Assembly: GCA_937858895.1 (NCBI GenBank)
Contig: CALLZN010000394.1
Location: 1 to 32,748 of the forward strand
Direction of reading: 5' to 3'
Length of the DNA stretch: 32,748 bases
Origin: an uncultured bacterium
GTDB lineage: Bacteria > Planctomycetota > UBA1135 > GCA-002748355
The notes under the pieces are model-generated. The model was not told the DNA's origin. It made no database searches and worked only from the letters and a program-made list of their open reading frames with translations. Numbering within the stretch: position 1 is the first letter of the stretch; every line of letters starts with the position of its first letter. Below are positions 8,310 to 32,227 of the stretch, one piece after another. Position numbers and translations under genes: made by a program.

Positions 8310-8705
8310 GGATCGGAGTTTCGGTTCGGATGTCGGTCAGGTGGCGCCGGGCTTCGAGCGGCGGCGAACGATGAGTGTGAGAAAGCGCACATGGACCGGT
8401 CTCGGGGCCCTGGCGGTGCGCATGTTCTCCGCGCTTTTGTAGTGGCTGTCTTGGCTTGGCCGTCAGATCAAAGCGTTGGTCGGAATGAAGTTAGAGCTGA
8501 AGGCTCGTCGTGGAGGATGGCGGGCTATACTTCCACGCACGGTCTTCCCAGGCTATTCTCATACCACGCGGGAGACGGCACGAGACTTGACTGACCATTC
8601 TTCTTGCGTCCTGCTCAGTGGCAGCTTCGATGCCTGCCCCGACCGGGTCGAACCCCGTTCTCGCCCTCCCCTGATCGACATTCCCCGCACCGTGACGAGG
8701 TCTTC
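8310..8705. other. 396-nt divergent intergenic region, presumed promoter region
   Basis: No convincing gene is seen here; short open frames lack a Shine-Dalgarno and have no recognisable product. Promoters for both the minus-strand repeat-protein/tatD pair and the plus-strand lipoprotein pair should lie here. A TATACT at 8526-8531 resembles a -10 box but has no good -35 at the right spacing. A TTGACT at 8587-8592 resembles a -35 box but lacks a matching -10. I could not identify an operator or riboswitch. Confidence 0.5.
8697..8700 (+). promoter_or_regulatory. ribosome binding site deciding the first lipoprotein start
   Basis: GAGG is followed by a 5-nt spacer and the ATG at 8706. The frame is open upstream to 8604, but only the 8706 start places a basic N-terminus and hydrophobic core directly before the lipobox. 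Confidence 0.6.
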
Positions 8706-11336
8706 ATGAGCGGCCGAAATACCGGACCGATCCTCTTCTCCGCGCTCCGCCAGGCCCGCAATCTCGCTATCCCGCTCGCGCTCTTTGCGCTCGGTTCTTG
8801 CGGAGGTAGTGGTGGAGGCACCCCTGCAGGCATCGTCGGCTGCACGGACGGCAGCAAGGCGCTTTGCGTCACCGCTTGCAACCTCGGCTGCAGCACGAGT
8901 GGTTGCAGTCTCAGCAACATCGCGGTGAACCAACGGCTCGACTTCAGCTTCAATCTCGAGGTCGATGCGGCGAGGGTCACCACGAACAGGGTGCGCATCC
9001 GCGGGCGCGCGGGTAACGAGCCGATCGGGGTCTTCCTCGTGCAAGGCGCGACGATCAGCTTCGTGCCCGAGGTCAAGCAGGGAGGTGGCGAGACCTTCTT
9101 CGGCTTCACGAGGGACGAGACCTACACGCTCACGATTCCTTCCAAGGGGAATGCCTTCGAGACCCTGCGCTCGACATCGGGGGACGTCTTGGCGTCGGAC
9201 TTCTCTTGTCGCTTGCAGGTGACGCTCGGCATCGTCGACTTCGACGGCCAGCCGCCGCGCGCTTCGCTGCTCGTGCCTTCGACGATCGGCAAGAACTGTA
9301 TCGATCGCCGCGACACGAACATGCTGATCGAGTTCTCCGAACTCATCGATCCGCAGACTCTGACCGAGACCTCGGATGGTTTGAGCTTCCGCTTGGCTCA
9401 GGCCGACAACCAGGGCAACTGCTCGCAGAGCACGATTGCCATGCCGGGTGTGCGGACCATCAGTGTCGACCGCATCACGCAGCGCACGCGCGTTGCGTTC
9501 CGACCGGCCTTCGAGCCACCTGCGGGCTTCTGCATCATCGCGATCGTCTCCGACGAGATTCGCGACCTGTCTGGCAAGCGTGCGCAGCAGCAGAGCTTCT
9601 CCTTCTTGACTTGTGCCGGTGACGCGCCAACGCGAGAGATCGTCGATGACTTCTCGGACGATTCGACCAACGACCGGTCGCGCGGCGGGGCCAAGTGGGT
9701 TCAAGGCGCGGTCGTGGCGCCCACGCTCGGGGGAAGCGGCCGACACGGCGACTTCAATTATTTGCGCGTCGGCGCGAAGGACACATCGCGGGTCGATGCC
9801 CAGGATCGTCAGATCTGGGAGCTCAACGTCGATACAGCGGTGATTTCGGAACTCAGCACTCTGAGCGGGCAGGACGAGCCGGTCGTCAACGGCATCTTCG
9901 AGTTCACGAGCTTCTCGATCCCGTCCAACATCCACCTACAGCTCGTGGGTACGAAGGTGCCGGTGATTCGGGTCAGCGGCCAGGTCGACATCCAGGGCGT
10001 GCTTTCGCTTCCGCCGGAGACCGCGACCAAGCTGCTCGGGGCGAACAACAAGCCGCCCCTGGACGGACAGCAGGGCTTCCGCGGGGCGATCGGTGGCGGC
10101 ACGGGCGGCATCGGTGCGGACAGCCCGCACAAGAGCGGTGGCGGTCGCTTGGTCGGTACTGCGGGCGAGTCGATTCGCCTGCCGGCTGGACATCCCTTCG
10201 CTGCCTCTGCCGCGAATACCGGTGGCCTGCCGACGGGGGCCTGGCCGGCGAGCGGTCTTGACAAAGACGTGAAGTTCTCAGTTCAAGTCGTGCTCTGTCA
10301 GATGGCTGCAGCTGGTGGGAGTGGTGGCTCCTTCATCACCGCGGGCGGCGTCGGCTCGACGATCGACAACCTCTCGGCGGGAACCAAGGGGCAGCCGTAC
10401 GACTTTGGACCCGCTGGGTCGCCGAGCACGCCGGTCGACATCGCCCTCTTGCGCAATCGCTCGGAGCGCAGCTCGCTCCTCTATCTCCTTGGCGGTTCGG
10501 GCGGTGGTGGATCCGGCACGCATGCCAGTTCGACCTTTGATTCGCTCCCCTTCAGTCCACTTGCCTGGTCGCCTGGCTCGGGCGGCGCTGGTGGTGGGGG
10601 CATCCTGCACTTCCAAGTTGGCAGCGACTTCAACGTCGGAATCCGGGGCATCGTGAGTGTGGCGGGCGGCAATGCTCAGGACTACAACGTCGACCTCACG
10701 AACTTCACCAACCCGCCGCCAGGCGGTGCGGGTAGCGGCGGATCCCTGCTCTTGCCGGTCGGGGGGCTCCCCGACATCCGTGGTTCCGTGACGGCCGCCG
10801 GTGGTGCGGCCGGGCGCTATCGCTCGCGCGACTACAGCTTCACGGTCGACAGCGTCAGCGGTGCTGGCGGCGATGGCTTGCTGCGCTACGAGTCGGATCC
10901 GCCGCCGGCGCTTGCGGCTCTCGTCAACATGACGCCGACGCCAACCGCGGACAACATCGGCCCGGTCCATCCGGACGATGCCTCGCAGTTCTCGGTGCTC
11001 GCGACCGACTGGTACGACACGGGGCTCTTCTTCCCGCCGAAGCACCTGCGCTACGTCATCGAGGCGACGATCGACGACGTGCCGACCGTCTTCAGCGACG
11101 ACTCGACGCTCGGGCGCCGGGCCCAAGTCGGAGAGCCGATCGAAATCCTCTTCCAGGGTGCCCAGCTCGACGCTCAAACCAAGCGTCCGATGCCGCCCTT
11201 CTCCTCGTGGTCGTCAGGCACGATCGATGGCTTGACCCTCGCGGGTGGCAATGCCTTCCGCGTGCTCCTGCGCTTCGACCGTAGCAAGGCGTCGAAGATC
11301 GTCGTCAACAAGACCACCTACCGCTTCCAAGGTTGA
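8706..11336 (+). CDS. large glycine-rich lipoprotein with Ig-like segments (tandem paralog 1)
   Basis: This 876-residue secreted lipoprotein has a basic N-terminus, a hydrophobic stretch and a lipobox L-G-S-Cys32, so it should be lipid-anchored. Past a short GGSGGG linker sits a cysteine cluster at Cys46, Cys54, Cys58, Cys62 and Cys67. Two segments then resemble SbsA/Big_5-type bacterial Ig-like domains. The first contains NQRLDFSFN and DETYTLTIP; the second contains NMLIEFSELIDPQTL, RTRVAFRP and ISDEIRDLSGK-like strands. The middle has a VNGIFEFTSFSIP motif. Long glycine-rich blocks (GGGTGGIGAD, LLGGSGGGGSGTH, GGAGSGGSLLLPVGG) alternate with short hydrophobic strands, which suggests a repetitive beta fold. 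A final non-repetitive domain ends the protein. It is 3 nt from its paralog downstream. A role as surface structural or adhesive protein is plausible but unproven. No enzyme motif was seen. Confidence 0.75.
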   Translation: MSGRNTGPILFSALRQARNLAIPLALFALGSCGGSGGGTPAGIVGCTDGSKALCVTACNLGCSTSGCSLSNIAVNQRLDFSFNLEVDAARVTTNRVRIRGRAGNEPIGVFLVQGATISFVPEVKQGGGETFFGFTRDETYTLTIPSKGNAFETLRSTSGDVLASDFSCRLQVTLGIVDFDGQPPRASLLVPSTIGKNCIDRRDTNMLIEFSELIDPQTLTETSDGLSFRLAQADNQGNCSQSTIAMPGVRTISVDRITQRTRVAFRPAFEPPAGFCIIAIVSDEIRDLSGKRAQQQSFSFLTCAGDAPTREIVDDFSDDSTNDRSRGGAKWVQGAVVAPTLGGSGRHGDFNYLRVGAKDTSRVDAQDRQIWELNVDTAVISELSTLSGQDEPVVNGIFEFTSFSIPSNIHLQLVGTKVPVIRVSGQVDIQGVLSLPPETATKLLGANNKPPLDGQQGFRGAIGGGTGGIGADSPHKSGGGRLVGTAGESIRLPAGHPFAASAANTGGLPTGAWPASGLDKDVKFSVQVVLCQMAAAGGSGGSFITAGGVGSTIDNLSAGTKGQPYDFGPAGSPSTPVDIALLRNRSERSSLLYLLGGSGGGGSGTHASSTFDSLPFSPLAWSPGSGGAGGGGILHFQVGSDFNVGIRGIVSVAGGNAQDYNVDLTNFTNPPPGGAGSGGSLLLPVGGLPDIRGSVTAAGGAAGRYRSRDYSFTVDSVSGAGGDGLLRYESDPPPALAALVNMTPTPTADNIGPVHPDDASQFSVLATDWYDTGLFFPPKHLRYVIEATIDDVPTVFSDDSTLGRRAQVGEPIEILFQGAQLDAQTKRPMPPFSSWSSGTIDGLTLAGGNAFRVLLRFDRSKASKIVVNKTTYRFQG

Positions 11337-11339
11337 TCC

Positions 11340-13958
11340 ATGAGAACGACGTCCAAGCTCTTTCTCGCCCTGCCTCTCCTTCTCGCGGTCACTGCCTGTT
11401 CGGGCAGCGGCGGAGAAGCGGGGCTCGGGGCTGCGTGCCGCGGTTCCTCGGGGCTCTGTCTCGTGTCGTGCAGCCTCGGCTGTTCGCTCGAGGGCTGCAG
11501 CATCAAGAGCATCCCGGTCAACCAGCGCATCGTCTTCCGCTTCTCGCAGCCGATCGAGCCTAGCTCCGTTTCGCCTTCGACCGTGCGCTTGCGCAGCTCG
11601 CAGGGCGAACAACCGGTCGGCGACTTGATCGTCCAGGGTTCGGACATCGTCTTCAAGCCGGCGGTGCTTTCGAGCACGGAGTACGGCTTCGTCGAGAACG
11701 AGACTTACACGCTCGAACTCGCGGGCGGTCCTGGTGCTTTGGCGTCGATCGAGTCCTTGTCGGGTGACAAGCTCGGTGCGCGCCTCGCTTGCACGCTGTC
11801 GACGGACCTCGGAGTCATCGATGCGGACGGCAAGCCGCCGATCGGGGCGCTCGTCGTGCCGGACACGATCGTCGGTGTGAAGGCCGACACGCTGATCGTT
11901 GTCGAGTTCACGGAGAGCATCAACACCCTGCCGTTCCAGAACGGGGGCACGGGCGGCACGATCCTCTACAAGGTCGCTCTACCGGACTCGACATTGCCGA
12001 GTGGTTGCTCGAGGCGCTACTTCCCGCTGCCGGGTTCCGCGGCGCTCTCCGAGGATCCGATCACAGGGCGCACGAGAGTGGTCTTCCGCCCGTCCCTCCT
12101 CTTGCCGAGCGGCGCGTGCATCCAGGTCGAGATCACAGACGAGATCCGCGATCTGTCGGGCAAGTCGGCGGCAGGTCAAGTCTTCGACTTCGTGGCAGAG
12201 GCGCGTGCGGTCGTCGACCAGTTCCTGGAAGAGACCTTCGTCACCGCCGCCAAAACCGACGGGCTGCGCAGCGGCTCGTCATGGGGTGGCGGCAGTCTCA
12301 AGGTCGGCAAGCTCGGTGGCACCGGCATCCTCGGTTCCTTCAACCCTGTTGATGGCAAGGACCTGCAACAGAAGGATGCGCAGGGCCGCGACATCTACGA
12401 GTGGAACACCGACAGCGCGGTCATCCCTGAGTCGCGGACCTTGACGAACCAGGCCATCACGGTCACGAACGGAATCTTCGAGTTCACCGACTTCGTCGTC
12501 GGTGAGAAGGAGCGCGTGCGCTTCGTCGGCACGAAGCCCCCGATCATCCGCGCGTCCGGCACGATCCAGATCAACGGCGTCATCGAGTTGGTCTCGCCAC
12601 TTCCATCGAATACGCCGCCGTTTGAGACACGCGCTGGTTGGGTCGGTGGCATCGGTGGGCCGGGCGGTGGACGTGGAGGACAAGGTGGCGACAAGCCCGA
12701 TCTCCCAAGCGGTTCGATCAACGGTCGACCTGGCGAGAATGTGCGCGTGCCGGCTGGCCATCCACGAGCGGCGCAGGCGGTTGGCACCGGTGGCCCGGGT
12801 TCGCTCGCCTTCCCACGCACTGGCCAGAATCAGGATGTCGTTTGGATCGTCTTCCAGAACTTCGACATCTACGTACGGATGATGGCCAACGGCGGTGGCG
12901 GCGGCTCCCTCTTCGACCGCAACGGTACGCTCCTCGGCGGTACTGGCTTGGTCGAACGGACGACCACCACGCCCATCCTTGGCCCTTACTCGAACGCAGA
13001 GTTTCCGCCCACCGAGGCGGGCAGCAAGGCCTTCCCGGTGTTACCGGAAGTTTCCGGAATCGCGAGCAAGGATCTCTTCCTCCTCGGCGGCTCTGGTGGT
13101 GGCGGGGCTGGTACGCACGCTGCCTACACGGCTACGAAGGCTGCGTATTCATGGTCACCCGGGTACGGTGGCGGTGGTGGTGGCGGGGCTATCGCCTTCG
13201 AGGCGGGATCGGATTTCGTCGTCTCGGCGAGCGGTGAGGTCTACGCGCTTGGCGGCGGCGGCCTCGAATCGATCAACTTGAATGGCACCCCGCCCGCCTA
13301 CGCCCCTGGTGGCGGCGGCAGCGGTGGTTCGATCCTCGTTCAGGTCGGCGGTGTGCCAACCATCGTTGGTAAGGTCGACGTGTCTGGTGGAGCTGCCGGA
13401 ACCTTCCGGGAGACCGCTCCCCTCATCGATGTCAAGAGTCGCGGCGGCAATGGCGGCGCAGGTTACATCCGCGTTGAGGCCGATCCCAAGCCGAGCGCGG
13501 GCGCCTTCGGCGGCTTCAAGCCCGTGGCCATGGACGACAATGTCGGTCTCCTGAGGAGCGTCGACTACAGCGCGGCAACGGTTGCGGCCTCGTCGATCTA
13601 TGTCGCGCAGTCGCTCTTCCCGCCGACTTGGCTCTATTACAAAATCGACGCCAAGATCGACGGTGTGCCGGTGACCTACAGCGACGACATTCGCATGGTT
13701 CCGGGCAGTAAGCCGGCGTCCTCGTCGGAGCCGGTCGCGATCTACTTCAAGAGCGTGGCGGCCGATGCGCAGACCTCGCAGCCGATTGGCGAGTTCACGC
13801 CTTGGGTGCCTGCAACGGTCAAGGACTTCTCATTGCCGAAGTACGAGACCACTGCCGGCAACGGCATGCTCTTCCTGATCGTGCTCGACAAGGCCAAGAC
13901 GCCGACAAAGACGGGCTCGATCGAGATCACGAACCTGCGCATGTACTATCGCGGCTGA
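11340..13958 (+). CDS. large glycine-rich lipoprotein with Ig-like segments (tandem paralog 2)
   Basis: This 872-residue protein is a clear paralog of the lipoprotein just upstream, which ends 3 nt before this ATG. The signal peptide ends in the lipobox V-T-A-Cys20. The cysteine cluster is repeated at Cys33, Cys40, Cys44, Cys48 and Cys53. The same order of landmarks follows: VNQRIVFRFS, ENETYTLEL, the DEIRDLSGKSA strand, VTNGIFEFTDF, VRVPAGHPRAA, LLGGSGGGGAGTH, WSPGYGGGGGGGAI and GGGGSGGSILVQVGG. The C-terminal domain starts near SIYVAQSLFPPTWLYYKID, matching the first protein's TGLFFPPKHLRYVIE region. The two copies have diverged substantially, so the duplication is not recent. Both are probably co-transcribed and exported to the same envelope layer, perhaps as partners. 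No enzymatic motif is visible. Confidence 0.75.
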   Translation: MRTTSKLFLALPLLLAVTACSGSGGEAGLGAACRGSSGLCLVSCSLGCSLEGCSIKSIPVNQRIVFRFSQPIEPSSVSPSTVRLRSSQGEQPVGDLIVQGSDIVFKPAVLSSTEYGFVENETYTLELAGGPGALASIESLSGDKLGARLACTLSTDLGVIDADGKPPIGALVVPDTIVGVKADTLIVVEFTESINTLPFQNGGTGGTILYKVALPDSTLPSGCSRRYFPLPGSAALSEDPITGRTRVVFRPSLLLPSGACIQVEITDEIRDLSGKSAAGQVFDFVAEARAVVDQFLEETFVTAAKTDGLRSGSSWGGGSLKVGKLGGTGILGSFNPVDGKDLQQKDAQGRDIYEWNTDSAVIPESRTLTNQAITVTNGIFEFTDFVVGEKERVRFVGTKPPIIRASGTIQINGVIELVSPLPSNTPPFETRAGWVGGIGGPGGGRGGQGGDKPDLPSGSINGRPGENVRVPAGHPRAAQAVGTGGPGSLAFPRTGQNQDVVWIVFQNFDIYVRMMANGGGGGSLFDRNGTLLGGTGLVERTTTTPILGPYSNAEFPPTEAGSKAFPVLPEVSGIASKDLFLLGGSGGGGAGTHAAYTATKAAYSWSPGYGGGGGGGAIAFEAGSDFVVSASGEVYALGGGGLESINLNGTPPAYAPGGGGSGGSILVQVGGVPTIVGKVDVSGGAAGTFRETAPLIDVKSRGGNGGAGYIRVEADPKPSAGAFGGFKPVAMDDNVGLLRSVDYSAATVAASSIYVAQSLFPPTWLYYKIDAKIDGVPVTYSDDIRMVPGSKPASSSEPVAIYFKSVAADAQTSQPIGEFTPWVPATVKDFSLPKYETTAGNGMLFLIVLDKAKTPTKTGSIEITNLRMYYRG

Positions 13959-20542: not shown

Positions 20543-20572
20543 CGTGCATCGCGATCTCCGGGTCGCGTCACG
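20543..20572. terminator. possible shared hairpin between convergent genes
   Basis: CGTG (20543-20546) and CGCGA (20550-20554) pair with TCGCG (20563-20567) and CACG (20569-20572), with small internal loops. It spans the 27-nt gap between the glycosyltransferase stop and the comM stop. No T tract is visible; I offer it only as a candidate bidirectional terminator. Confidence 0.3.
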
Positions 20573-22142
20573 CACCATCGACGCGCATGCGGAAGTGCAA
20601 GGCCGTCGCGAGGGCCTCGTCGTCGATGAGGCGCGAACCCCCTAGGTCGGCGACCGTGCGGGCGACACGGAGAATGCGCTGGATCGCGCGCGCCGACAGG
20701 CCGGCACGGCGGCCGTCCGTAGTGAGGAGCCGATGCGCTGCTGGCGCCAGCTGCCGACGAAGACTGCGCTCGTCGAGGTTCGCGTTGAGAACGCCGCCGT
20801 TGCGCTCGAGACCCCGGCTACGACCTTCCTCGACGCGCGCGCGCAGCTGCGCCGATGTCGTCGTCGGCGCTTCCTCCCGCAGCAACTGCGTTGCGTCGAC
20901 TGGCTGCATCGAGAGTTGGAGGTCGATGCGATCGAGGAGCGGACCCGAGATCCTCGAGCGGTAGTTGGCGATCTGCTTGGGCGTGTCGATGCAGGGTCGC
21001 GTCGGGTGGCCGAGCATGCCGCACGGGCAGGGGTTCATCGCGACGACGAGCTGGAAGCGCGCCGGCAGGGTGACGATGCCTCCCGCGCGCGCGATGACGA
21101 TGCGTCCCTCCTCGATCGGTTGTCGCAGGGCCTCGAGGGCGAGGCGCGAGAACTCGGGGACCTCGTCGAGGAAGAGCACGCCGGAATGCGCGCGCGTGAT
21201 CTCGCCTGGCCGAATCGGCTGCCCACCGCCGACGAGGCCGGCGTAGCTCGCCGTGTGGTGGGGGGCGCGGAAGGGCCGGCGGCCTTCGTCGAGCAAGCGC
21301 GCGACCTCGACGCCATCGAGCGTGTCGAAGGCGCTGTGGATGCGCGCGAGTTCGAGGCGTTCGCTGCGCGAGAGTTGTGGCAGCAGTCCGGGTAGACAGC
21401 GTGCGAGCAGGGTCTTGCCGCAGCCAGGCGGCCCGGACATCAGCATGTGATGGCCACCGACCGCGGCAATCAACAGGGCCTCGACAGCACTCTCTTGTCC
21501 CCGCACGCGGCCGATGTCGACTTCGCAGCGGTTCGCGTCGCTCCTCGTCGCCAGTGGTTCTACCTGACGCGTCCTACCGCCGCTGACCACGGCGAGCGCT
21601 TCCGTCAAGTCGCGCAGCGGCACGATCTCGACCGGCGTTTCGACGTGGAGGGCGAGGCGGGCATCGTCATCCGGACAGCAGAGGCGCTTGATGCCACGAG
21701 CGACGCAGAGATCGAGGATCGCAAGGATGCCGCGCACCGGTCGAAGGCTACCGTCGAGGCCGACCTCACCGACGAAGAGGGCATCGCGCAAGCAGGTCGC
21801 AGCGACCCGACCGGTCAAACTCGACAAGGCGAGGGCGATGGCGAGGTCGAAGCCGCTGCCGGCCTTGCGCGTCGCGGCGGGTGCGAGGTTGATCACCACC
21901 TGCCCGCGTGGGAAGCTCCAATCGAGGCTCCGGAAGGCCGTCGCCACGCGGTAGTAGGACTCGCGGATCGTCGCGTCGGGCAGCCCGAGAATACGAGGCG
22001 GCGCGTACTGGTCGCCGTAAGCCGAGACCTCGATCTCGACCACGCTGGCCTCGAAAAGGGTCACATCGGCTCCGCGGACTTGGATCGGGTGGCGAGGACC
22101 GTGGTCGAAGAGGTCAGCGAAGGGCTCGGATCGTGGCGGCAC
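20568..22142 (-). CDS. comM: ComM/YifB Mg-chelatase-like AAA+ ATPase
   Basis: This 524-residue protein is a YifB/ComM-family AAA+ ATPase, a hexameric helicase-like protein that promotes branch migration during natural transformation in some bacteria. The N-terminal ChlI-like (Lon-related S5-like) domain shows the ILGLPDATIRES motif and RGQVVINLAPAATRKAG-SGFDLAIALA. The Mg-chelatase AAA+ domain follows, with Walker A GPPGCGKT (about residues 235-242), FRAPHHTASYAGLVGGG, Walker B GVLFLDEVPEF, the MNPCPCG segment and SGPLLDRIDL. The C-terminal helical lid ends in LSARAIQRILRVARTVADL. The GTG at 22142 is preferred. An in-frame ATG at 22238 would prepend 32 residues that look non-coding, rich in Ser, Pro, Arg and Cys. 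Neither start has a good Shine-Dalgarno. It is divergent from the small CxxC gene. Confidence 0.93.
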   Translation of the reverse strand: MPPRSEPFADLFDHGPRHPIQVRGADVTLFEASVVEIEVSAYGDQYAPPRILGLPDATIRESYYRVATAFRSLDWSFPRGQVVINLAPAATRKAGSGFDLAIALALSSLTGRVAATCLRDALFVGEVGLDGSLRPVRGILAILDLCVARGIKRLCCPDDDARLALHVETPVEIVPLRDLTEALAVVSGGRTRQVEPLATRSDANRCEVDIGRVRGQESAVEALLIAAVGGHHMLMSGPPGCGKTLLARCLPGLLPQLSRSERLELARIHSAFDTLDGVEVARLLDEGRRPFRAPHHTASYAGLVGGGQPIRPGEITRAHSGVLFLDEVPEFSRLALEALRQPIEEGRIVIARAGGIVTLPARFQLVVAMNPCPCGMLGHPTRPCIDTPKQIANYRSRISGPLLDRIDLQLSMQPVDATQLLREEAPTTTSAQLRARVEEGRSRGLERNGGVLNANLDERSLRRQLAPAAHRLLTTDGRRAGLSARAIQRILRVARTVADLGGSRLIDDEALATALHFRMRVDGA

Positions 22143-22251
22143 GGCGCTGTATGCCTTCGAGCGCCTCGCGGGCTCGCAGCTTTTTTTGCATCCTCCGGAT
22201 CTCGGCGCCGAGCCGGCTATGCTGGGCAGCTCTGCCACTGTCTATGGCCAT
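22114..22251 (-). CDS. possible 45-aa basic helical small protein overlapping the comM start
   Basis: On the minus strand, in a different frame from comM, ATG 22251 opens a 45-codon frame ending at 22114. The peptide is strongly helical and charged, with an AEIRRMQKKLRAREALEG core that could form a coiled coil. It overlaps the preferred comM GTG by 29 nt. A second ATG (22191) inside it directly abuts a GGAGG. High-GC shadow frames are often rich in Arg and Ala, so the composition is weak evidence, and codon bias does not separate it from the alternative frame. It could be a real leader gene or chance. No function is proposed. Confidence 0.3.
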   Translation of the reverse strand: MAIDSGRAAQHSRLGAEIRRMQKKLRAREALEGIQRRAATIRALR

Positions 22252-24203: not shown

Positions 24204-24209
24204 AAGGGA
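24204..24209 (+). promoter_or_regulatory. ribosome binding site deciding the A2M-like start
   Basis: AAGGGA is followed by an 8-nt spacer and the ATG at 24218. This favours 24218 over the ATG at 24209 that overlaps the motif, and over a GTG at 24167. The 24218 start also gives a compact signal peptide. Confidence 0.6.
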
Positions 24210-24217
24210 TGCTCGTC

Positions 24218-27200
24218 ATGTCGTCGCTCGGTCGCCTTCTGCCTGCGGTCTTTCTCCCCTTCTTTCTCCAGGCTTCGACGCCGCAGAACCAGGCGCGCGA
24301 AGCCTTCCTGAGCCTGGCAGCGCGCGACTACGGCGCCGCGATCCGTGCTCTTGAAGCCGAGTACGGGAGTCAGCCGAAGGACGCACTCGGCGGGGGCGAA
24401 GCCGAGCGTGTGCTCTTCTTGCTCGCCAACGCGCGGCTCGTGAGTGGGGACGCCGCGGGAGCCGCCCGCGACTTCGAGGCCTGCCTCGACCGTCACGCGG
24501 AAGGACGGCACGCCGTGCTCGCGCGCTTCGGCCTCGCTCGCGCCAAGGCCAAGGTCGGCGACCATCGAACGGCGGCCGACCACTATGCCCATGAGGTCGC
24601 CCGCCTGCTCAGCGTCGAGCGGCGCCTCGGTCTCGCGGCGACCTACACCGGGCTCGTCGACAAGCGCCTCGCCCAGGAGCCACCCGACACGCGTGCGGCC
24701 ATCGCCTTCCTCGACCTCGCCGTCGCCCTCGAGCTGCCGCGGGACAAGGAGATCGAGCTACGGCGCCAGGCGGCCGAGCTCGCCTATCGAAGCGAGGACT
24801 GGGCCGACGCCGCGCGGCGAGCGGAGGAGATCACGAAGCTGGTCGGGCCGACGGTCCGCGACCCGGCAGCGACTCGCGACCGCATCTCGCTGGCTCGGGC
24901 ATGGCGCCGCGCCGGCAAGGTCGTCGAGGCGCGCCGTCTCCTCGAGGATCTCCTGCGTGGCGAGCTCGCAGCGCAGGGCGTGGACGCCGCGGCGCGCGAA
25001 GTCGCTGCACTCGCACGCTTCGAACTCGCGGCGACCTGGGGTCTGCCGACGGGCGGCACCAACGGCTTGCGGGCCAGAGACGAGCTGAGCCGCCTGCTGT
25101 CCGAGCATCCCGATGCGCCCTTCGCGGCCGAGGCGACCTGGCTCTTGGTCAAGACCCTCGAGGCGCTCGGGCGATCGCAGGAGGCCCTCGACGTCTGTGG
25201 GACTCTGCTCGCACGCTACAAGGCAGTCGAGGCGGCGCCGTCAGTCCTCACGAAGACGGTCATCGATCCCCTGGCCGAAGCGGCCATCGAGAAAGCCATC
25301 CTCCTCGGCGCCCTCGGTCGCTTCGAAGAAGCGCTGCAAGCAGCTCGCGACTACCTCGCGGGCCACCCGGCCCATGGGCGCTGGGTCGAGGCGCAGCAGG
25401 CCATCCTCGACTTCGAGCTGCGCCGCGCCTCCGCGCTGGCTGACCAAGGTCCCGAGCACGCGATCGAGGCGATCGAGCTCTACCACGCTTGGCTCGCTTC
25501 CCATCCCCTCGATGCGCGAGCTGCTTCGGTGTCCCTGAGCGTCGGCAAGCTCTTCGAGGCGAAGGCCAAGTCCGAGTCCGTCGAAGAGACGAAGCGTCGT
25601 GGCTTCGCGGCGGCGCGCGAGAGCTACGAGCAGACCGCGGCCAAGTATCCGAACAGCGGCGAGGCCTCCGAGGCGCGCTTCAGCATTGGTCGCCTCTACG
25701 AGACCGAGCTCTTCGACTACGCTGCGGCCATCGCAGCCTATGGTCGGGTCAGCGGCGGGTGGCAGGCCAAGGCGCAGCTGCGGCTCACGGCGCTGCGCGA
25801 GAAGAGCCTCGTCGTGACGACCGAGCGCATCTTCCGCAGTGACGAGGCGGCGGTCTTGAAGGTCGCGACCCGCAACATCGACAAGCTGCGCGTCCGCGTC
25901 TATGGCCTCGACTACGAGACGTTCTTTCGCGGCACCCGCGGTGTTGGAGACGTCGCTGCGCTTGCGGTCGAGGTCATCGCGCCGGACCAGAGCTTCGAAG
26001 CGCCGACCCCCGACTATGAGCCCTACCGCGAGACCGAGCGGGCGCTGCCGATCGAGACCAAGGGGCCAGGCGCCTGGATCGTCAAGGTCGACGACGGGGC
26101 GCTCGAGGCGACAGCAGTTGTCTTCGTGTCGGACCTCGCGGTCATCACCAAGGCGGCGCGCGATGAGCTCTTCATCTTCGCGCAGAACACCAAGACCCAG
26201 GCGGTCGAAGCCGGCGCCGAGGTCGTCGTGACCGACGGCAGCAAGGTCGTCGCCGAAGGCCGCACCGACGAGCGCGGTGTCTGGCGTTATCGCGGCGAAG
26301 CAACGAAGGCGGCCAAGCTCTGTGTCTTCGCGACGACAGCCTCCGGCAGCGGCGCGACGACGATGGACCTGAGCGGCCTCGTCACGGCTCAGGGCCTCGT
26401 CGCGCGTGCGGCGATTTGGACCGATCGCACCCTCTTCGCCCCCGGCGAAGTCCTGCATGCCAAGGCCGTCCTGCGCGAAGTCGAGGCCGGGCAATACCGG
26501 CTGCCGCCAAGGGTCCCGCATCGCTTCGAAGTGCTGGACCCGAGTGGTCGCCTGCTCGGCAGCGTGAGCCAGGAGCCCGACGAGTTCGGCACCCTGCGCG
26601 CTGACTTCGATCTGCCCGAGACCTCGCCGCCTGGCAGTTACTCGCTCGTCGTGACGCGGGAGCGGGACCAGCGCGTGCTCGCGACCGAGACGGTCGCGGT
26701 CGAGCACTTCACGAAGCCGAGGGCTTCGCTCGAGATCGAGAGCAAGGCCACGACCCTCTTGCGTGGGGACAAGATCGAGGGTGTCGTGCGGGCGGCATGG
26801 TTCTTCGGCGGGCCGGTCGTCGGCCGACGCATCAGCGTCCGCGCGAACATCGACGGCGGCCGCGTGCTCGAGGGCAGAAGCGACGAAAATGGCAGCTTCG
26901 CCTTCTCGTTCGAGACACAAAGTCTCGCGAGTGAAGCCAGCGTCCTCGTGACGGCGACCCTCGCCGAGGAGAGCGCGGTCGTGCAGCGTAGCTTCGAGGT
27001 GCGGAGCCAGGCCTTCACCCTCGCCTTGGACTTGCCTTCCAAGCTCTTCATCTGCGGTGACAGCCTCGAGGCGCAGGCCATGGTTCGCGCTCACGACGGC
27101 GCGCTGCTCGCGCGCGAGCTGCGCTTCGCGCTCTTCGAACTCGAGACGACGAAGCGCGGCACCGTCGAGCGCCCGCGCGGCGAAGTCATAGCGACGAGCC

Positions 27201-30200
27201 TCGCTGCGACCGGCATGGCGCGTGCGACCTTCCAGCTCAGCGGTGACTCGAAGAACCGCAGCGGCAACTGGCGGCTTCGCGTCGTCGGCGTCGACCGCAA
27301 CGGGGCCAGCGTCGAAGCGAGCACGACCTTCTTCGTCTCGGGCGAGGATGACGCGACCAAGCTCCGCGTGCTCTGTGACACACAGCACGGCAGCGTCGGT
27401 TCGAGCACGAAGCTGCGCATCGTCAACCGCGACGCCGCGCGGCTCGCGCTGATCACGATCGAGGGGGACGCGGTGCTCGACTTCGAGACCAGGCCGCTGG
27501 CCCTTGGCGAGACCATCATCGACCTGCCCTTCCGCGAAGTGCACGCGCCGAACTTCGCTTGGAACATCGCGCTCGCTGGTGAGCGTCGCCTCTACACGGC
27601 GCGCAAGGACTTCATCGTCGCGCGTCCGCTCGACGTCGAGCTGCGACGCATCGGCGACGCGCGCTTGCGCCCAGGCGACGAAGTGCCGATCGAGGTCATC
27701 GCCAAAGACGGTGCTGGCCGCCCCGTGCGGGCGGACTTCTCGCTGGCGCTCGTCGACCAGGCCCTGCTCGACCTGCGTCCCGATGCGTCGGCGACGCTCG
27801 ATGCGATCTTCTGGGGGCCGTCGGTTCGACGGAACACGGAGCTCGTGACGCATGGGTCGACGGCGTTCAGCTACGCGGCGACCACGCGTGGCGTCAACTC
27901 GGACCTCAAGGCTGACGAGCTGCTGCGGGAGCGCCTGCGGGCCGAAGAGCTCATGAAGGAAGCGTGGCGCGACCGTGGTGACGCCGCGTTGCCGGGCCTC
28001 GGAGACAAGAAGCTCGACCAGTTCAGTAGGGGCGCGTTGGAGCCCAGCGCGGTGCAGCTGGAGCTCGAGCAGACGGACGTCGCTCAGACCATGGGTATCG
28101 GTGGCGGAGGGGGCGGCAAATTCGGTGTCCGCAGCGGCGGTATCGCTGCTGTGCGTCGCGACCAGAGCCTCGGACAGCAGCAGCTGGGCGTCGTCGATCT
28201 CAACAGTTTTGGTGGTGGGCAGCTCTTCTTTGCAGCCCAGGGCCAGCAAGAGGAGGCGGGCATCGTCCGCTACTTCAAGAGCATCGAAGGTCGCACGGCC
28301 TTGACCTTGAGCAACGACTTCGCGACGCGAGCAGCGCGTGAAGAGCTGAATGTCCAAGAGCGCCGCATGGATGCAGGGTCTTCGATCTGGGTCGCGACGC
28401 TACGCACCGGCGACGATGGTCGCGCGACGACTACGCTGCGCCTGCCGCTCCGCGAAGGCGCCTTCCGTTTGCGCGTGCGCGGCCTGTCGGCTGAGTCGCT
28501 CTTCGGTGAAGCGAGTGAGGGCTTCGAGGTCAGCCGCGACCTCCTGCTCGAGCCGGTCGTGCCGAGCCTCGTCCTAGAAGGCGACGTGGTCCATGCAAGG
28601 CTCGGCGTTCATTGGCTCGGCAAGGAAGCGACCCGCGCGACCTGGCGGGTCAAGTCCGGGGCCGACCTCTTGCTCGAGGGATCGAAAGAGGTCGCGCCTT
28701 CGTCCGAGGAGCGCAGCGACTTCGACATCGCGACGAAGGTCGTCGGCGTCCAGCCCCTCGCCTTCGAGGGCGAGACAGCAGCCGGGAGTCGTGACCGCGT
28801 CCTCGGTGGCTACGAGGTCCGCGCCAAGGGGATCGAGGAGCGCGATGCTCGAGCTGGACTCCTCGGCGGCGAGACCTCGTTCGAGCTCGCGCTCCCGAAG
28901 GGCGAGTATCGCTCGCGCACCTTGACCCTCGACTTCGGCCCCGAGCTGCCCGAAGAGCTCCTACCGACCGCGCCCTTGACACGACGCTACAGCTTGTCCT
29001 GCGGCATCGACTGGCTGGTGCCGACGCAGCAGAACCGCGCCGCCGCCGGTCTCACGGCGCTCGCGCTCTTCGACGCGTGGAAGCGCGCCGCAACCGAGCG
29101 ACGCGACGCGAACACCGGGCTCGCCGCGACGATTCGCACGACGATCGGTCAGCTCACCGCGTCGCTGCAGGACGGTCGACTCGCGTGGATTGGCAAGACG
29201 AAGAACGACATCGTCGACGTCGAGGCGGGCCTCTTCGCGACGCTCTTCCTCGTGCGGGCGCAGAAGGCGGGCTTCGTCGTCGATCGCAACGTGCTGGGCG
29301 CCTTGCGCGCTCGCCTCATGGCCGAGGCCGGCGCGCGCGACCAAGGTCAAGCGACGCTGGCTCTGCTCGTCGCCGCCGAAGATGGCAGCGTCGACTTCGC
29401 GCGCTTCAACACGGTTCTTCGCGCGCGCACGCAGATGTCGCTCGGCTCGAAGGCGCGCCTCGTGCTCGCGGCAGCTGCGATGGGAAGGCCAGGCCTGACC
29501 GCCGACCTCGACCTCGTGTCGGACTTGCGGCGGCGCTTCGATGCCGGGACAGGGGCCAAGCCGCGGCACGTGCGGGTCGATGCAGCCACGCTGCGGGACA
29601 GCCTCTGGGCCCTCCTGGCCGTGCGTGAACAAGCTGGCAACGCGGCCCTCGTGCGCCTTGGCATGGACTGGCTCTGGGCTCAACGCGAGGCCAATGGCTT
29701 CGCTGATGCCGTCGCGACCGCGCTCGCGACCGACATCTACGCCCGCCAGGCGGTGGATCGCGATCAGCTCGCAGCCAAGGTCGTCGTGCGCGTCGCTTCG
29801 TTCGAGACGACGATCGACCTCGCAGCGGCGCCGCGTCACCACCGCGTCGAAGTGCCGGCGCAGCTCCTCACGGATGACAAGGTCCGGGTGACGCTGCAGA
29901 CTGCGGGCCGCGGCAAGGTCGTCTACACGGCGCTGCTCGCAGGCATGACGCGTGGCTTGCCCGAGGGGCGGCGCGATGCGGCAGCGCCTCAGCGGCGCTA
30001 CTTCCAGCCCGTCGACTTCGTGGACGGCCGGCCCTTGCCGGAAGGCTTTGCGGCGGTCGACGAGACCGTCGAGCGCTGGACGAACCTGGCGAGCGAAGTC
30101 GCGATCGGCGAGAGCATCCAGGCTCAGCTGCGCTGGCATCCGTCGCGCGACCTGCGCGCGCGCTTCGGATCGGTCGTCATCGAAGAGCCGCTGCCTGCCG

Positions 30201-32227
30201 GCGCCTACGTGCGGAGCGAGGACGTCAGCGGCAACTTCGACGAGGTCGAGGTCGGGCGTGGCTTCCTGCGCTTCTATCTGCACGCGACGCGGCCGGCTCT
30301 CTTCGTCCAGTACGCCTTGAGTGGCGTCGTGGCAGGTGAGTACGGCGTGCTGCCGGCGCGTGTCTTCTCGCTCGATCAAAGGGACATGCAAGCCTATGGC
30401 GCTGCGCAGTCCTTGCGCGTCTTGCGCGTGGGCGAAGCGCGCCGCGACGTGCGGCGCCCGACGCCCGACGAGCTGCTCGCGCGCGGCACGCGGCTCTTCG
30501 ATGACCCGCAGGGTGACCCTGCGCGTCGGGCCGAGGCCGAGCTCGTCTTGACGAAGCTCTGGGACGAGTATCGTGACCGCCTGAAGGACAGCGCCTTCGG
30601 AGATGTCGTGCGCCGCCTGCTTCAGAGCGCACTGCAGACCGGTGAGGCCACGAAGACGATCGCGCTCTTCGAAGCCCTGCGCGACCGCGATGCGAACGCG
30701 GTCCTGTCCTTCGCCGACACCGAGAAGGTCGCAGCGGCCTATGCCAAGAGCGGCGAGTTCGAGCGCGCCCTCCAAGTGCGCGAGGCTGTCTGCGAGACGC
30801 TCTTCCTTCGCGAAGTGCAGGTCGCAGGCGCCCTCGACCGCGTCGGCGAGGTCGCCCTCTCGATCGACTTCATGAATGCGCTCTTCCACGACTACCCGGG
30901 CTTGCCGACGATGCGCGGCGCGCTCTATGCCTTGGCGCAGTCGCTGCACGAGCGCGCCGCGTCGATCGCGGACGACGCGCCGGGTAGCGCGGCGCTGCGC
31001 ATCTCGCTGCGACGCAGCGCGCGCGACCTCTGTCGAGAGTATCTCTGGCGCTATCCCGACGACGCCGACGCCGACGAAGTCGTCTTCGCGCTCGCGAGCG
31101 TTGCGCTGGACGCCGACCAGGTCGAAGAGGCCAAGACGCTGCTCGAGCGTGCGCTTCCGGCGCACACCGCGTCGAAGTGGCTCGACGACTTCCTCTACTT
31201 GTCGGGCTACGCCTCCTACTTGCGTCGTGAAGACCAGGCGGCCCTCGACTTGCTTGCGCGCGTCGCGAGCGAGGACTTCGTGCTCGGTGCCGACCAAAAG
31301 GGACCGAGTTCGAACCGCGACGCGGCGGTCTTCCTCCAAGGGCAGATCCACCATGCCGCCGGCAATCCGAGCGAGGCCGTCGCCAAATACGAGGCCGTGG
31401 AGACGAGCATCGTCGAAGCGAAGGAGGCCGCCGACTACTTCCGCGCTCGCGAACTGCGTCTGCCTGAGGTCGTTGTCCTCGCGCCCACGGATGCGACGGA
31501 CGTCACGCTCACGCACCGCAACCTCGAGGCGGTTTCGATCGCGGTCTACAAGGTCGACCTCATGCGGCTCTACTTGATGCGCAAGTCGCTCGACGACGTC
31601 GCGTCGGTTCAGCTCTTCGGCATCGCGCCGGTCTTCGAACAGGAGCTCGACCTGCGTGCTGATCCGCGCTTCCGCGATGTCGAGCGCGCGCTGACGCTGC
31701 CGCTCGAAGGTCGCGGTGCCTGGCTCATCCTTGCCCGTACGGGTGCGGCGACGAGCACTTCCCTCGTCGTGCGCACAGCCCTCGAAGTCGAGACGCAGGA
31801 GCTCGTCGCCGAAGGCCGCGTCCGCGTCAACGTCCGTAAGGACGGCGTCGTCGTTCCGCGTGCGACGGTCAAGGTCGTCGGTGACCGCGATGGAACGATT
31901 CGCAGCGGCCGCACGGATCTACGCGGGGTCTTCGTCGCCGACGCTGTCCAGGGCATCGCGACGGTCCTCGTGCAGGAGGGCGAAGACTACGCCTTCTTCC
32001 GCGGCAAGGTCGCGCTCGGCCCGCCCATGCAGCAAGTCGAGCAGCAGCGCGGCATACAACTCGGCGTGCTGCACAAAAGCTTGAATCTCTCCGAGAAGGG
32101 GAAGAACTTCGACGCCCTCGAAGGCAACCGCGTCCTCAACATCCAGATCCAGCGCGCTGCGCGCGAGAAGCTCGAGACCTACTTCGAGAACAAGCAGCAG
32201 GGCGTCGACTTGCGGCGAGCGAAGTGA
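24218..32227 (+). CDS. giant exported TPR/alpha-2-macroglobulin-like protein
   Basis: This 2,669-residue protein has a signal peptide (MSSLGRLLPAVFLPFFLQAS) with no lipobox, so it should be periplasmic or secreted and not lipid-anchored. Residues about 25-520 are TPR-like helical repeats. A beta-rich block from about 530 begins the macroglobulin part: WTDRTLFAPGEVLHAKAVLRE near Trp734 is the MG2/MG3-type motif, and VDQALLDLRPD near 1179 is the bait-region-domain hallmark. Residues 1200-1390 contain a Gly/Gln-rich insertion. SIWVATLRTGDDGRATTTLRLP near Trp1391 starts the A2M domain. The helical thioester-like domain begins around Cys1595, but its motif reads Cys-Gly-Ile-Asp, not the C-x-E-Q needed for a thioester. 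A second TPR run (about 2085-2405) and a final beta-rich part follow. Bacterial A2M proteins trap proteases or guard the envelope; that role here is inferred. Confidence 0.82.
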   Translation: MSSLGRLLPAVFLPFFLQASTPQNQAREAFLSLAARDYGAAIRALEAEYGSQPKDALGGGEAERVLFLLANARLVSGDAAGAARDFEACLDRHAEGRHAVLARFGLARAKAKVGDHRTAADHYAHEVARLLSVERRLGLAATYTGLVDKRLAQEPPDTRAAIAFLDLAVALELPRDKEIELRRQAAELAYRSEDWADAARRAEEITKLVGPTVRDPAATRDRISLARAWRRAGKVVEARRLLEDLLRGELAAQGVDAAAREVAALARFELAATWGLPTGGTNGLRARDELSRLLSEHPDAPFAAEATWLLVKTLEALGRSQEALDVCGTLLARYKAVEAAPSVLTKTVIDPLAEAAIEKAILLGALGRFEEALQAARDYLAGHPAHGRWVEAQQAILDFELRRASALADQGPEHAIEAIELYHAWLASHPLDARAASVSLSVGKLFEAKAKSESVEETKRRGFAAARESYEQTAAKYPNSGEASEARFSIGRLYETELFDYAAAIAAYGRVSGGWQAKAQLRLTALREKSLVVTTERIFRSDEAAVLKVATRNIDKLRVRVYGLDYETFFRGTRGVGDVAALAVEVIAPDQSFEAPTPDYEPYRETERALPIETKGPGAWIVKVDDGALEATAVVFVSDLAVITKAARDELFIFAQNTKTQAVEAGAEVVVTDGSKVVAEGRTDERGVWRYRGEATKAAKLCVFATTASGSGATTMDLSGLVTAQGLVARAAIWTDRTLFAPGEVLHAKAVLREVEAGQYRLPPRVPHRFEVLDPSGRLLGSVSQEPDEFGTLRADFDLPETSPPGSYSLVVTRERDQRVLATETVAVEHFTKPRASLEIESKATTLLRGDKIEGVVRAAWFFGGPVVGRRISVRANIDGGRVLEGRSDENGSFAFSFETQSLASEASVLVTATLAEESAVVQRSFEVRSQAFTLALDLPSKLFICGDSLEAQAMVRAHDGALLARELRFALFELETTKRGTVERPRGEVIATSLAATGMARATFQLSGDSKNRSGNWRLRVVGVDRNGASVEASTTFFVSGEDDATKLRVLCDTQHGSVGSSTKLRIVNRDAARLALITIEGDAVLDFETRPLALGETIIDLPFREVHAPNFAWNIALAGERRLYTARKDFIVARPLDVELRRIGDARLRPGDEVPIEVIAKDGAGRPVRADFSLALVDQALLDLRPDASATLDAIFWGPSVRRNTELVTHGSTAFSYAATTRGVNSDLKADELLRERLRAEELMKEAWRDRGDAALPGLGDKKLDQFSRGALEPSAVQLELEQTDVAQTMGIGGGGGGKFGVRSGGIAAVRRDQSLGQQQLGVVDLNSFGGGQLFFAAQGQQEEAGIVRYFKSIEGRTALTLSNDFATRAAREELNVQERRMDAGSSIWVATLRTGDDGRATTTLRLPLREGAFRLRVRGLSAESLFGEASEGFEVSRDLLLEPVVPSLVLEGDVVHARLGVHWLGKEATRATWRVKSGADLLLEGSKEVAPSSEERSDFDIATKVVGVQPLAFEGETAAGSRDRVLGGYEVRAKGIEERDARAGLLGGETSFELALPKGEYRSRTLTLDFGPELPEELLPTAPLTRRYSLSCGIDWLVPTQQNRAAAGLTALALFDAWKRAATERRDANTGLAATIRTTIGQLTASLQDGRLAWIGKTKNDIVDVEAGLFATLFLVRAQKAGFVVDRNVLGALRARLMAEAGARDQGQATLALLVAAEDGSVDFARFNTVLRARTQMSLGSKARLVLAAAAMGRPGLTADLDLVSDLRRRFDAGTGAKPRHVRVDAATLRDSLWALLAVREQAGNAALVRLGMDWLWAQREANGFADAVATALATDIYARQAVDRDQLAAKVVVRVASFETTIDLAAAPRHHRVEVPAQLLTDDKVRVTLQTAGRGKVVYTALLAGMTRGLPEGRRDAAAPQRRYFQPVDFVDGRPLPEGFAAVDETVERWTNLASEVAIGESIQAQLRWHPSRDLRARFGSVVIEEPLPAGAYVRSEDVSGNFDEVEVGRGFLRFYLHATRPALFVQYALSGVVAGEYGVLPARVFSLDQRDMQAYGAAQSLRVLRVGEARRDVRRPTPDELLARGTRLFDDPQGDPARRAEAELVLTKLWDEYRDRLKDSAFGDVVRRLLQSALQTGEATKTIALFEALRDRDANAVLSFADTEKVAAAYAKSGEFERALQVREAVCETLFLREVQVAGALDRVGEVALSIDFMNALFHDYPGLPTMRGALYALAQSLHERAASIADDAPGSAALRISLRRSARDLCREYLWRYPDDADADEVVFALASVALDADQVEEAKTLLERALPAHTASKWLDDFLYLSGYASYLRREDQAALDLLARVASEDFVLGADQKGPSSNRDAAVFLQGQIHHAAGNPSEAVAKYEAVETSIVEAKEAADYFRARELRLPEVVVLAPTDATDVTLTHRNLEAVSIAVYKVDLMRLYLMRKSLDDVASVQLFGIAPVFEQELDLRADPRFRDVERALTLPLEGRGAWLILARTGAATSTSLVVRTALEVETQELVAEGRVRVNVRKDGVVVPRATVKVVGDRDGTIRSGRTDLRGVFVADAVQGIATVLVQEGEDYAFFRGKVALGPPMQQVEQQRGIQLGVLHKSLNLSEKGKNFDALEGNRVLNIQIQRAAREKLETYFENKQQGVDLRRAK

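Follow-up and report, generated by a model that had tools for sequence, protein, structure and literature searches.

A double-ended A2M-like protein of Planctomycetota with duplicated NIE-MG1 modules and a likely kinship to CAGE

Bacterial alpha-2-macroglobulins (A2Ms), a family of protease traps, are currently divided into two types. Type I proteins, such as E. coli YfhM/ECAM and Salmonella A2M, have the order NIE-MG1-MG2...A2M-TED-RBD and carry a CxEQ motif in their thioester domain (TED). Type II proteins, such as P. aeruginosa MagD and E. coli YfaS, have an A2M body without a thioester, and MagD retains a protease non-covalently after bait cleavage (PMC5764988). CAGE has been described as a conserved shell of megadalton size and novel fold, formed as a hollow tetramer of a protein of 2,200-2,300 aa that has no Pfam domains and whose function is not known (PMC12485934). 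It occurs in Planctomycetota, Verrucomicrobiota, ciliates and Dictyostelium, its members including Tetrahymena CAGE1 (I7MLD7) and Dictyostelium AbpF (PMC12485934). The published domain list comprises a helical region (1-443), three beta domains (444-555, 556-635 and 636-748) and, further along, helical domain 11, beta domain 12, helical domains 13-14 and a terminal beta domain (2014-2215, 202 aa); for domains 4 and 6, the authors' best structural matches were A2Ms (PMC12485934).

The stretch of planctomycete DNA analysed here (the window, 32,748 nucleotides) encodes a 2669-aa A2M-like protein, P0001, whose A2M-type body lies behind a leader peptide. The gene could also start at an in-frame ATG at 24209 (MLVMSSLGRLLPAVFLPFFLQA, hydrophobic leader). 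The gene and its domains are as follows.

24218-32227, + strand: gene for P0001, an exported double-ended A2M-like protein of 2669 aa (ORF)
24287-25753, + strand: N-terminal TPR/helical run, residues 24-512 (AlphaFold mean pLDDT 92.7, helices 2-504 of the segment)
25754-26119, + strand: N-terminal NIE-type beta domain, residues 513-634, including IDKLRVRVYGLDYETFFR (Foldseek to 4zjh; hhalign with the C copy)
26120-26383, + strand: N-terminal MG1, residues 635-722 (Pfam bMG3 at 637-707, E 3.4e-12)
26408-26701, + strand: MG2, the first domain of the conserved A2M core, residues 731-828 (Pfam E 1.2e-18)
27383-27775, + strand: match to the A2M bait-region domain, residues 1056-1186 (Pfam BRD E 0.0029, below its cut-off)
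28085-28138, + strand: glycine-rich motif MGIGGGGGGKFGVRSGG at the bait position (basis includes 80%, 23 columns)
28385-28621, + strand: A2M domain, residues 1390-1468 (Pfam E 1.5e-5)
28910-29797, + strand: TED region without CxEQ, residues 1565-1860 (alignment with GCxEQT-bearing relatives)
30005-30442, + strand: RBD (bMG10), the usual C-terminal end of an A2M, residues 1930-2075 (profile alignments to short A2Ms and YfhM)
30455-31429, + strand: second (C-terminal) TPR run, residues 2080-2404 (AlphaFold helices; Pfam TPR in homologs)
31430-31777, + strand: second NIE-type domain, residues 2405-2520, including NLEAVSIAVYKVDLMRLYL (4zjh as top Foldseek match; BLASTP to the N copy)
31778-32032, + strand: second MG1-type domain, residues 2521-2605 (BLASTP and Foldseek; Pfam bMG3 in few homologs)
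32033-32224, + strand: conserved C-terminal tail, residues 2606-2669, with a GV[ED][VLI]xRxxK-like end (helix in the AlphaFold model)

Elsewhere in the window, two ORFs that lie next to each other (8604-11333, 910 aa; 11340-13955, 872 aa) have Big_5 Ig-like matches and probably encode large surface or exported proteins, and the product of 1227-1994 matches DUF2950 and carries a pilin-like N-terminal methylation motif. A ComM-type Mg-chelatase AAA+ gene (20568-22235, - strand) lies upstream of the P0001 gene, outside any conserved neighbourhood. Any one neighbour family was common to at most 14 of 77 loci, and the surroundings therefore gave no operon clue.

The MG2, bMG3 and A2M domains of P0001 scored above their Pfam cut-offs, with BRD below, and the body aligned to short A2Ms at the profile level. 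The window-clade profile (512-2069) aligned to 409-2079 of 2080-aa short A2Ms (profile of seven short A2Ms from related genomes, E 5e-119) and the RBD profile matched 1557-1633 of the 1639-aa YfhM chain, its last residues. As both alignments stop at the RBD, where canonical A2Ms end (residue ~2069 in P0001), the last 600 residues of P0001 are an addition past the canonical end, consisting of a second TPR run and a second NIE-MG1. Several of the seven short paralogs had a recognisable N-terminal NIE-MG1, and in none of the seven was a C-terminal NIE-MG1 found. The classical A2M core claimed in a preliminary description of this DNA was thus borne out for MG2, A2M and RBD, weakly for the bait domain, and not for the thioester motif, which is absent.

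The same description had placed TPR and beta modules at both ends of the protein and suggested that they arose by internal duplication or by fusion of two related exported proteins. Paired sequences were apparent on inspection: IDKLRVRVYGLDY, beginning at residue 554, with NLEAVSIAVYKVD at 2435, and ALPIETKGPGAW, beginning at 609, with ALTLPLEGRGAW at 2491. BLASTP of residues 1-800 against 2050-2669 returned a single strong match, 543-689 against 2425-2573 (31% identity, one gap, E 2e-11), and the lack of self-similarity between 530-640 and 2410-2540 that would have refuted the proposal is therefore not observed. The match is also longer than first described, because the similarity runs on through the next domain. 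When the family alignment (A1, 18 homologs) was cut into 14 segments and compared all-against-all with hhalign, the NIE-NIE pair scored about 100, other pairs scored <40 unless overlapping, and no other two separate parts of the chain matched strongly. With a larger homolog set, the joined NIE-MG1 modules of the two ends matched each other at 99.8% (E 1e-27, profile-profile), and in a whole-genome search the C-module profile recovered the N module of P0001 (E 8.2e-20).

AlphaFold models of residues 24-735 and 1940-2669, for which window and GTDB-locus sequences had been aligned, had mean pLDDT values of 92.7 and 90.4, respectively, with helical runs preceding both modules (helices at 2-504 in the N model and at 144-470 in the C model). 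Among 50 homologs of the C-terminal part, 42 had Pfam TPRs; the YbgF/BamD-like TPR matches of the N-terminal run were below the NCBIfam cut-off. The top PDB match of the C model was 4zjh, the NIE-MG1 of E. coli A2M (Foldseek E 8e-8, 218 columns, 208-residue chain), and the N model matched 4zjh too, among many TPR proteins (E 6.2e-7, TMt 0.64). By sequence, the two module profiles matched one and the same stretch of E. coli A2M, N clearly and C weakly, and Pfam bMG3 was detected in the second MG1-type domain of 4/50 homologs and weakly in L117. Secondary structure was alike in both modules, including a helix following the early strands, which in the C copy holds a near-invariant VDLMRLYL. Since both models and both profiles match E. 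coli A2M NIE-MG1, each end of P0001 is, as modelled, a TPR run followed by NIE-MG1. The off-diagonal alignment of the two ends (482 columns) passes through the TPRs, and duplication of the TPRs in the same event as NIE-MG1 is plausible; we do not claim it, as TPRs align generically to one another.

We further investigated the occurrence of this layout. The 80 GTDB loci with the C-terminal motif were nearly all from Planctomycetota, with some from Verrucomicrobiota and one from a record titled Riflebacteria, and among them all complete chains were ordered TPR, NIE, MG1, core, A2M, TED, RBD, TPR, NIE, MG1. The C-module profile matched 123/294 Planctomycetota genomes, some of the weak matches possibly being N modules only. 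The cultured planctomycete Singulisphaera acidiphila has a double-ended A2M (L074). No relative of P0001 was found in viral contigs. One genome carries, besides an intact gene, a second double-ended copy in many frames (L120, G007:C198:6000-16500) that looks like a pseudogene, and in another the protein is encoded as two ORFs with a single in-frame stop after TED (L170, G255:C31:313000-321800).

The TED of P0001 reads LSCGIDWLVPTQQN at residue 1593, and CxEQ was absent from P0001 and every complete window-clade member, which sets P0001 apart from the thioester-bearing type I. All short A2Ms had CxEQ (YGCxEQT in L111, L112, L113 and L118). CxEQ was also retained in a distant set of double-ended relatives, mostly of 2431-2936 aa (L174-L178, L180-L183, L185-L189 and L193), as well as in L117; variants included DCVEQT (L175) and GCLEQS (L178), and L182 was read in part only. 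L190-L192 were without CxEQ and had weak TED or A2M matches. Within the thioester-bearing group, loss of CxEQ in L179 and L194 seems to have been independent of that in the window clade. Given that CxEQ persists in relatives of the same double-ended layout, the plain reading of the sequences is that the layout probably came first and thioester loss later. A quick core tree with long branches, taken as no more than weak support, was compatible with derived thioester loss; it placed two CxEQ-bearing short A2Ms (L115 and L116) beside the window clade, possibly through a long-branch effect.

A second family brought CAGE into the comparison. P0002 (L122), a 2229-codon ORF from a genome of the same family, was matched by the NIE model at both ends. 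Members of this CAGE-like family (P0002/A9) are about 2107 aa long when counted from their likely start, with a leader peptide; Pfam found essentially nothing in them, and matches occurred in 19/41 searched related genomes, including the window's own. The window clade matched the CAGE-like family by profile at 93% for the C end, 75% for the N end and 79% for the core (reversed control, 0.2%), and the thioester clade matched it at 97% over 555 columns, from RBD to the C end, the E-values of both being those of single comparisons and not of a database search. Taken alone, the TED, CUB and RBD segments did not match the CAGE-like family directly by sequence, and no CAGE chain was found when its profile was compared with PDB chains. 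Length, domain order, taxonomy and lack of Pfam domains suggest that the CAGE-like family may be CAGE itself. The window's own genome encodes at least two CAGE-like proteins (L136, G000:C352:2-2014; L145, G000:C246:3501-4223), one of them cut by a contig end, and in another genome several CAGE-like genes share contigs (L126, L142 and L147; G008:C25 and C52), suggestive of tandem copies.

A tree of 90 NIE-MG1 modules, drawn from the window clade, the thioester clade, a degenerate clade, L117 and the CAGE-like family, separated all C copies from all N copies by a single branch (support 99/91). Constraining the window-type N and C copies to one clade was rejected (AU p 4e-5). This split and this rejection show that the NIE-MG1 duplication predates the spread of the window clade through Planctomycetota and Verrucomicrobiota. 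The equivalent constraint on the CAGE-like copies was not rejected (AU p 0.275) because their branches are long; the best tree nevertheless argues, short of proof, against an independent duplication inside that family (99/91), and judging by these sequences the duplication is probably older than the CAGE-like family too. The double-ended layout is an ancient inheritance and not a recent fusion.

Two other accounts of the paired ends were weighed against duplication. Mere general likeness among macroglobulin beta domains might be expected to some degree, one fold being common to all MG domains, yet this account is already contradicted by the gap between the NIE-NIE score and those of the other non-overlapping pairs and by the specific match of both ends to NIE-MG1, and we regard it as having almost no chance of being right. 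Fusion, in this lineage, of an A2M with a separate but related exported TPR-NIE-MG1 protein is improbable, although the C-terminal unit stands as a TPR-beta module of its own and metagenome-assembled genomes with split ORFs occur. Against it, both ends were present in every complete homolog, distant ones included, and no free-standing C-module gene was found among the 294 Planctomycetota genomes, the inspected short ORFs with the module being contig-edge pieces or broken genes. A search for homologs split at about residues 530 or 2085 had been proposed as a check; the few split ORFs broke at unrelated points, after MG1, after TED or midway through the C-terminal TPR run, and the breaks appear to be frameshifts, in-frame stops or contig ends. 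Had a fusion occurred early, before the class spread, it would have left a picture identical to that of duplication. Of the two origins first suggested, internal duplication of an NIE-MG1 pair preceded at each end by TPRs therefore held up, and fusion of two exported proteins did not.

Many members of the window clade, of the double-ended A2Ms with a thioester and of the CAGE-like family have a motif resembling [IV]G[ILM]GGGxGGx[FY]GGRxGG at the bait position; the short A2Ms examined did not show it. We lean towards reading P0001 as a member of an exported double-ended ('bookended') A2M class, with TPR-NIE-MG1, an MG2-to-RBD body and a second TPR-NIE-MG1 whose NIE-MG1 is of old duplicate origin. 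P0001 itself has no thioester and is predicted to work non-covalently, as a protease trap or a container with kinship to CAGE. The duplicated end modules and the absence of the thioester in P0001 are direct results of the comparisons above; the mechanism is drawn by analogy. Through their end modules, which are paralogous, subunits would build a hollow shell in the cell envelope, as in the apparently related CAGE, and a protease or other client might be held inside non-covalently, as in the thioester-less MagD, probably after cleavage of the glycine-rich bait segment.

It is less probable that P0001 is a regulatory or scaffolding envelope protein whose thioester-less body traps nothing and whose two TPR ends bind partners. 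The lack of a thioester anywhere in the window clade, the common role of TPRs in partner binding, the weak bait domain and the very conserved VDLMRLYL helix of the C copy would all suit such a role. However, the two ends also occur in relatives that keep the thioester, and so were not acquired to replace trapping; the motif at the bait position turns up throughout the class, and no strongly conserved neighbour gene was found in the 77 loci. A trap or container remains our preferred reading of P0001.

Compared with known systems, P0001 shares the domain order of type I A2Ms, and both its N and C modules match their NIE-MG1 (4zjh). In contrast, type I proteins are about 1640 aa, have MG0 in place of the TPR run, stop at the RBD without a second NIE-MG1 and have CxEQ. 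The short planctomycete A2Ms likewise share NIE-MG1 and the A2M body with P0001, but end at the RBD and keep YGCxEQT. With type II proteins P0001 shares a body without a thioester; MagD, however, is a 165-kDa protein for which a double-ended layout is not described, and the six-gene mag operon is not seen around P0001, with none of the Pfam-scanned window genes recognisable as mag-like and no strongly conserved neighbourhood in the 77 loci. Bacterial A2M architecture is therefore more varied than the type I/type II division. The preliminary description knew of no such architecture, and this stands for A2Ms in the literature searched (thin on subscription papers and recent preprints), where double-ended members are not described, but not for CAGE, which has the same domain order (PMC12485934). 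When our models and segments were set against the published list, P0001 followed the CAGE order of helical-NIE-MG1-MG...helical-beta-helical-beta with a C-terminal beta domain: CAGE 444-555, 556-635 and 636-748 correspond to NIE, MG1 and MG2, helical domain 11 and beta domain 12 lie at the TED and RBD positions, and the 202-residue terminal beta domain compares with 201 residues for the second NIE-MG1. Unlike CAGE, P0001 is longer and has recognisable MG2, bMG3 and A2M domains. P0001 thus seems to link ordinary macroglobulins with CAGE of bacteria and protists. It is likely that CAGE has no separate fold but is a far-diverged A2M, for which an NIE-MG1 head (with TPRs) was duplicated onto the tail of a thioester A2M, the thioester then lost (window clade) and CAGE of bacteria and protists reached by further divergence; P0001 would be the sequence-level intermediate, predicting a trap or container function for both. 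If the two are related, an origin for CAGE and a testable function, the enclosing of proteases or other clients, follow, and a series from covalent trap to non-covalent cage becomes open to study in cultured planctomycetes such as Singulisphaera acidiphila.
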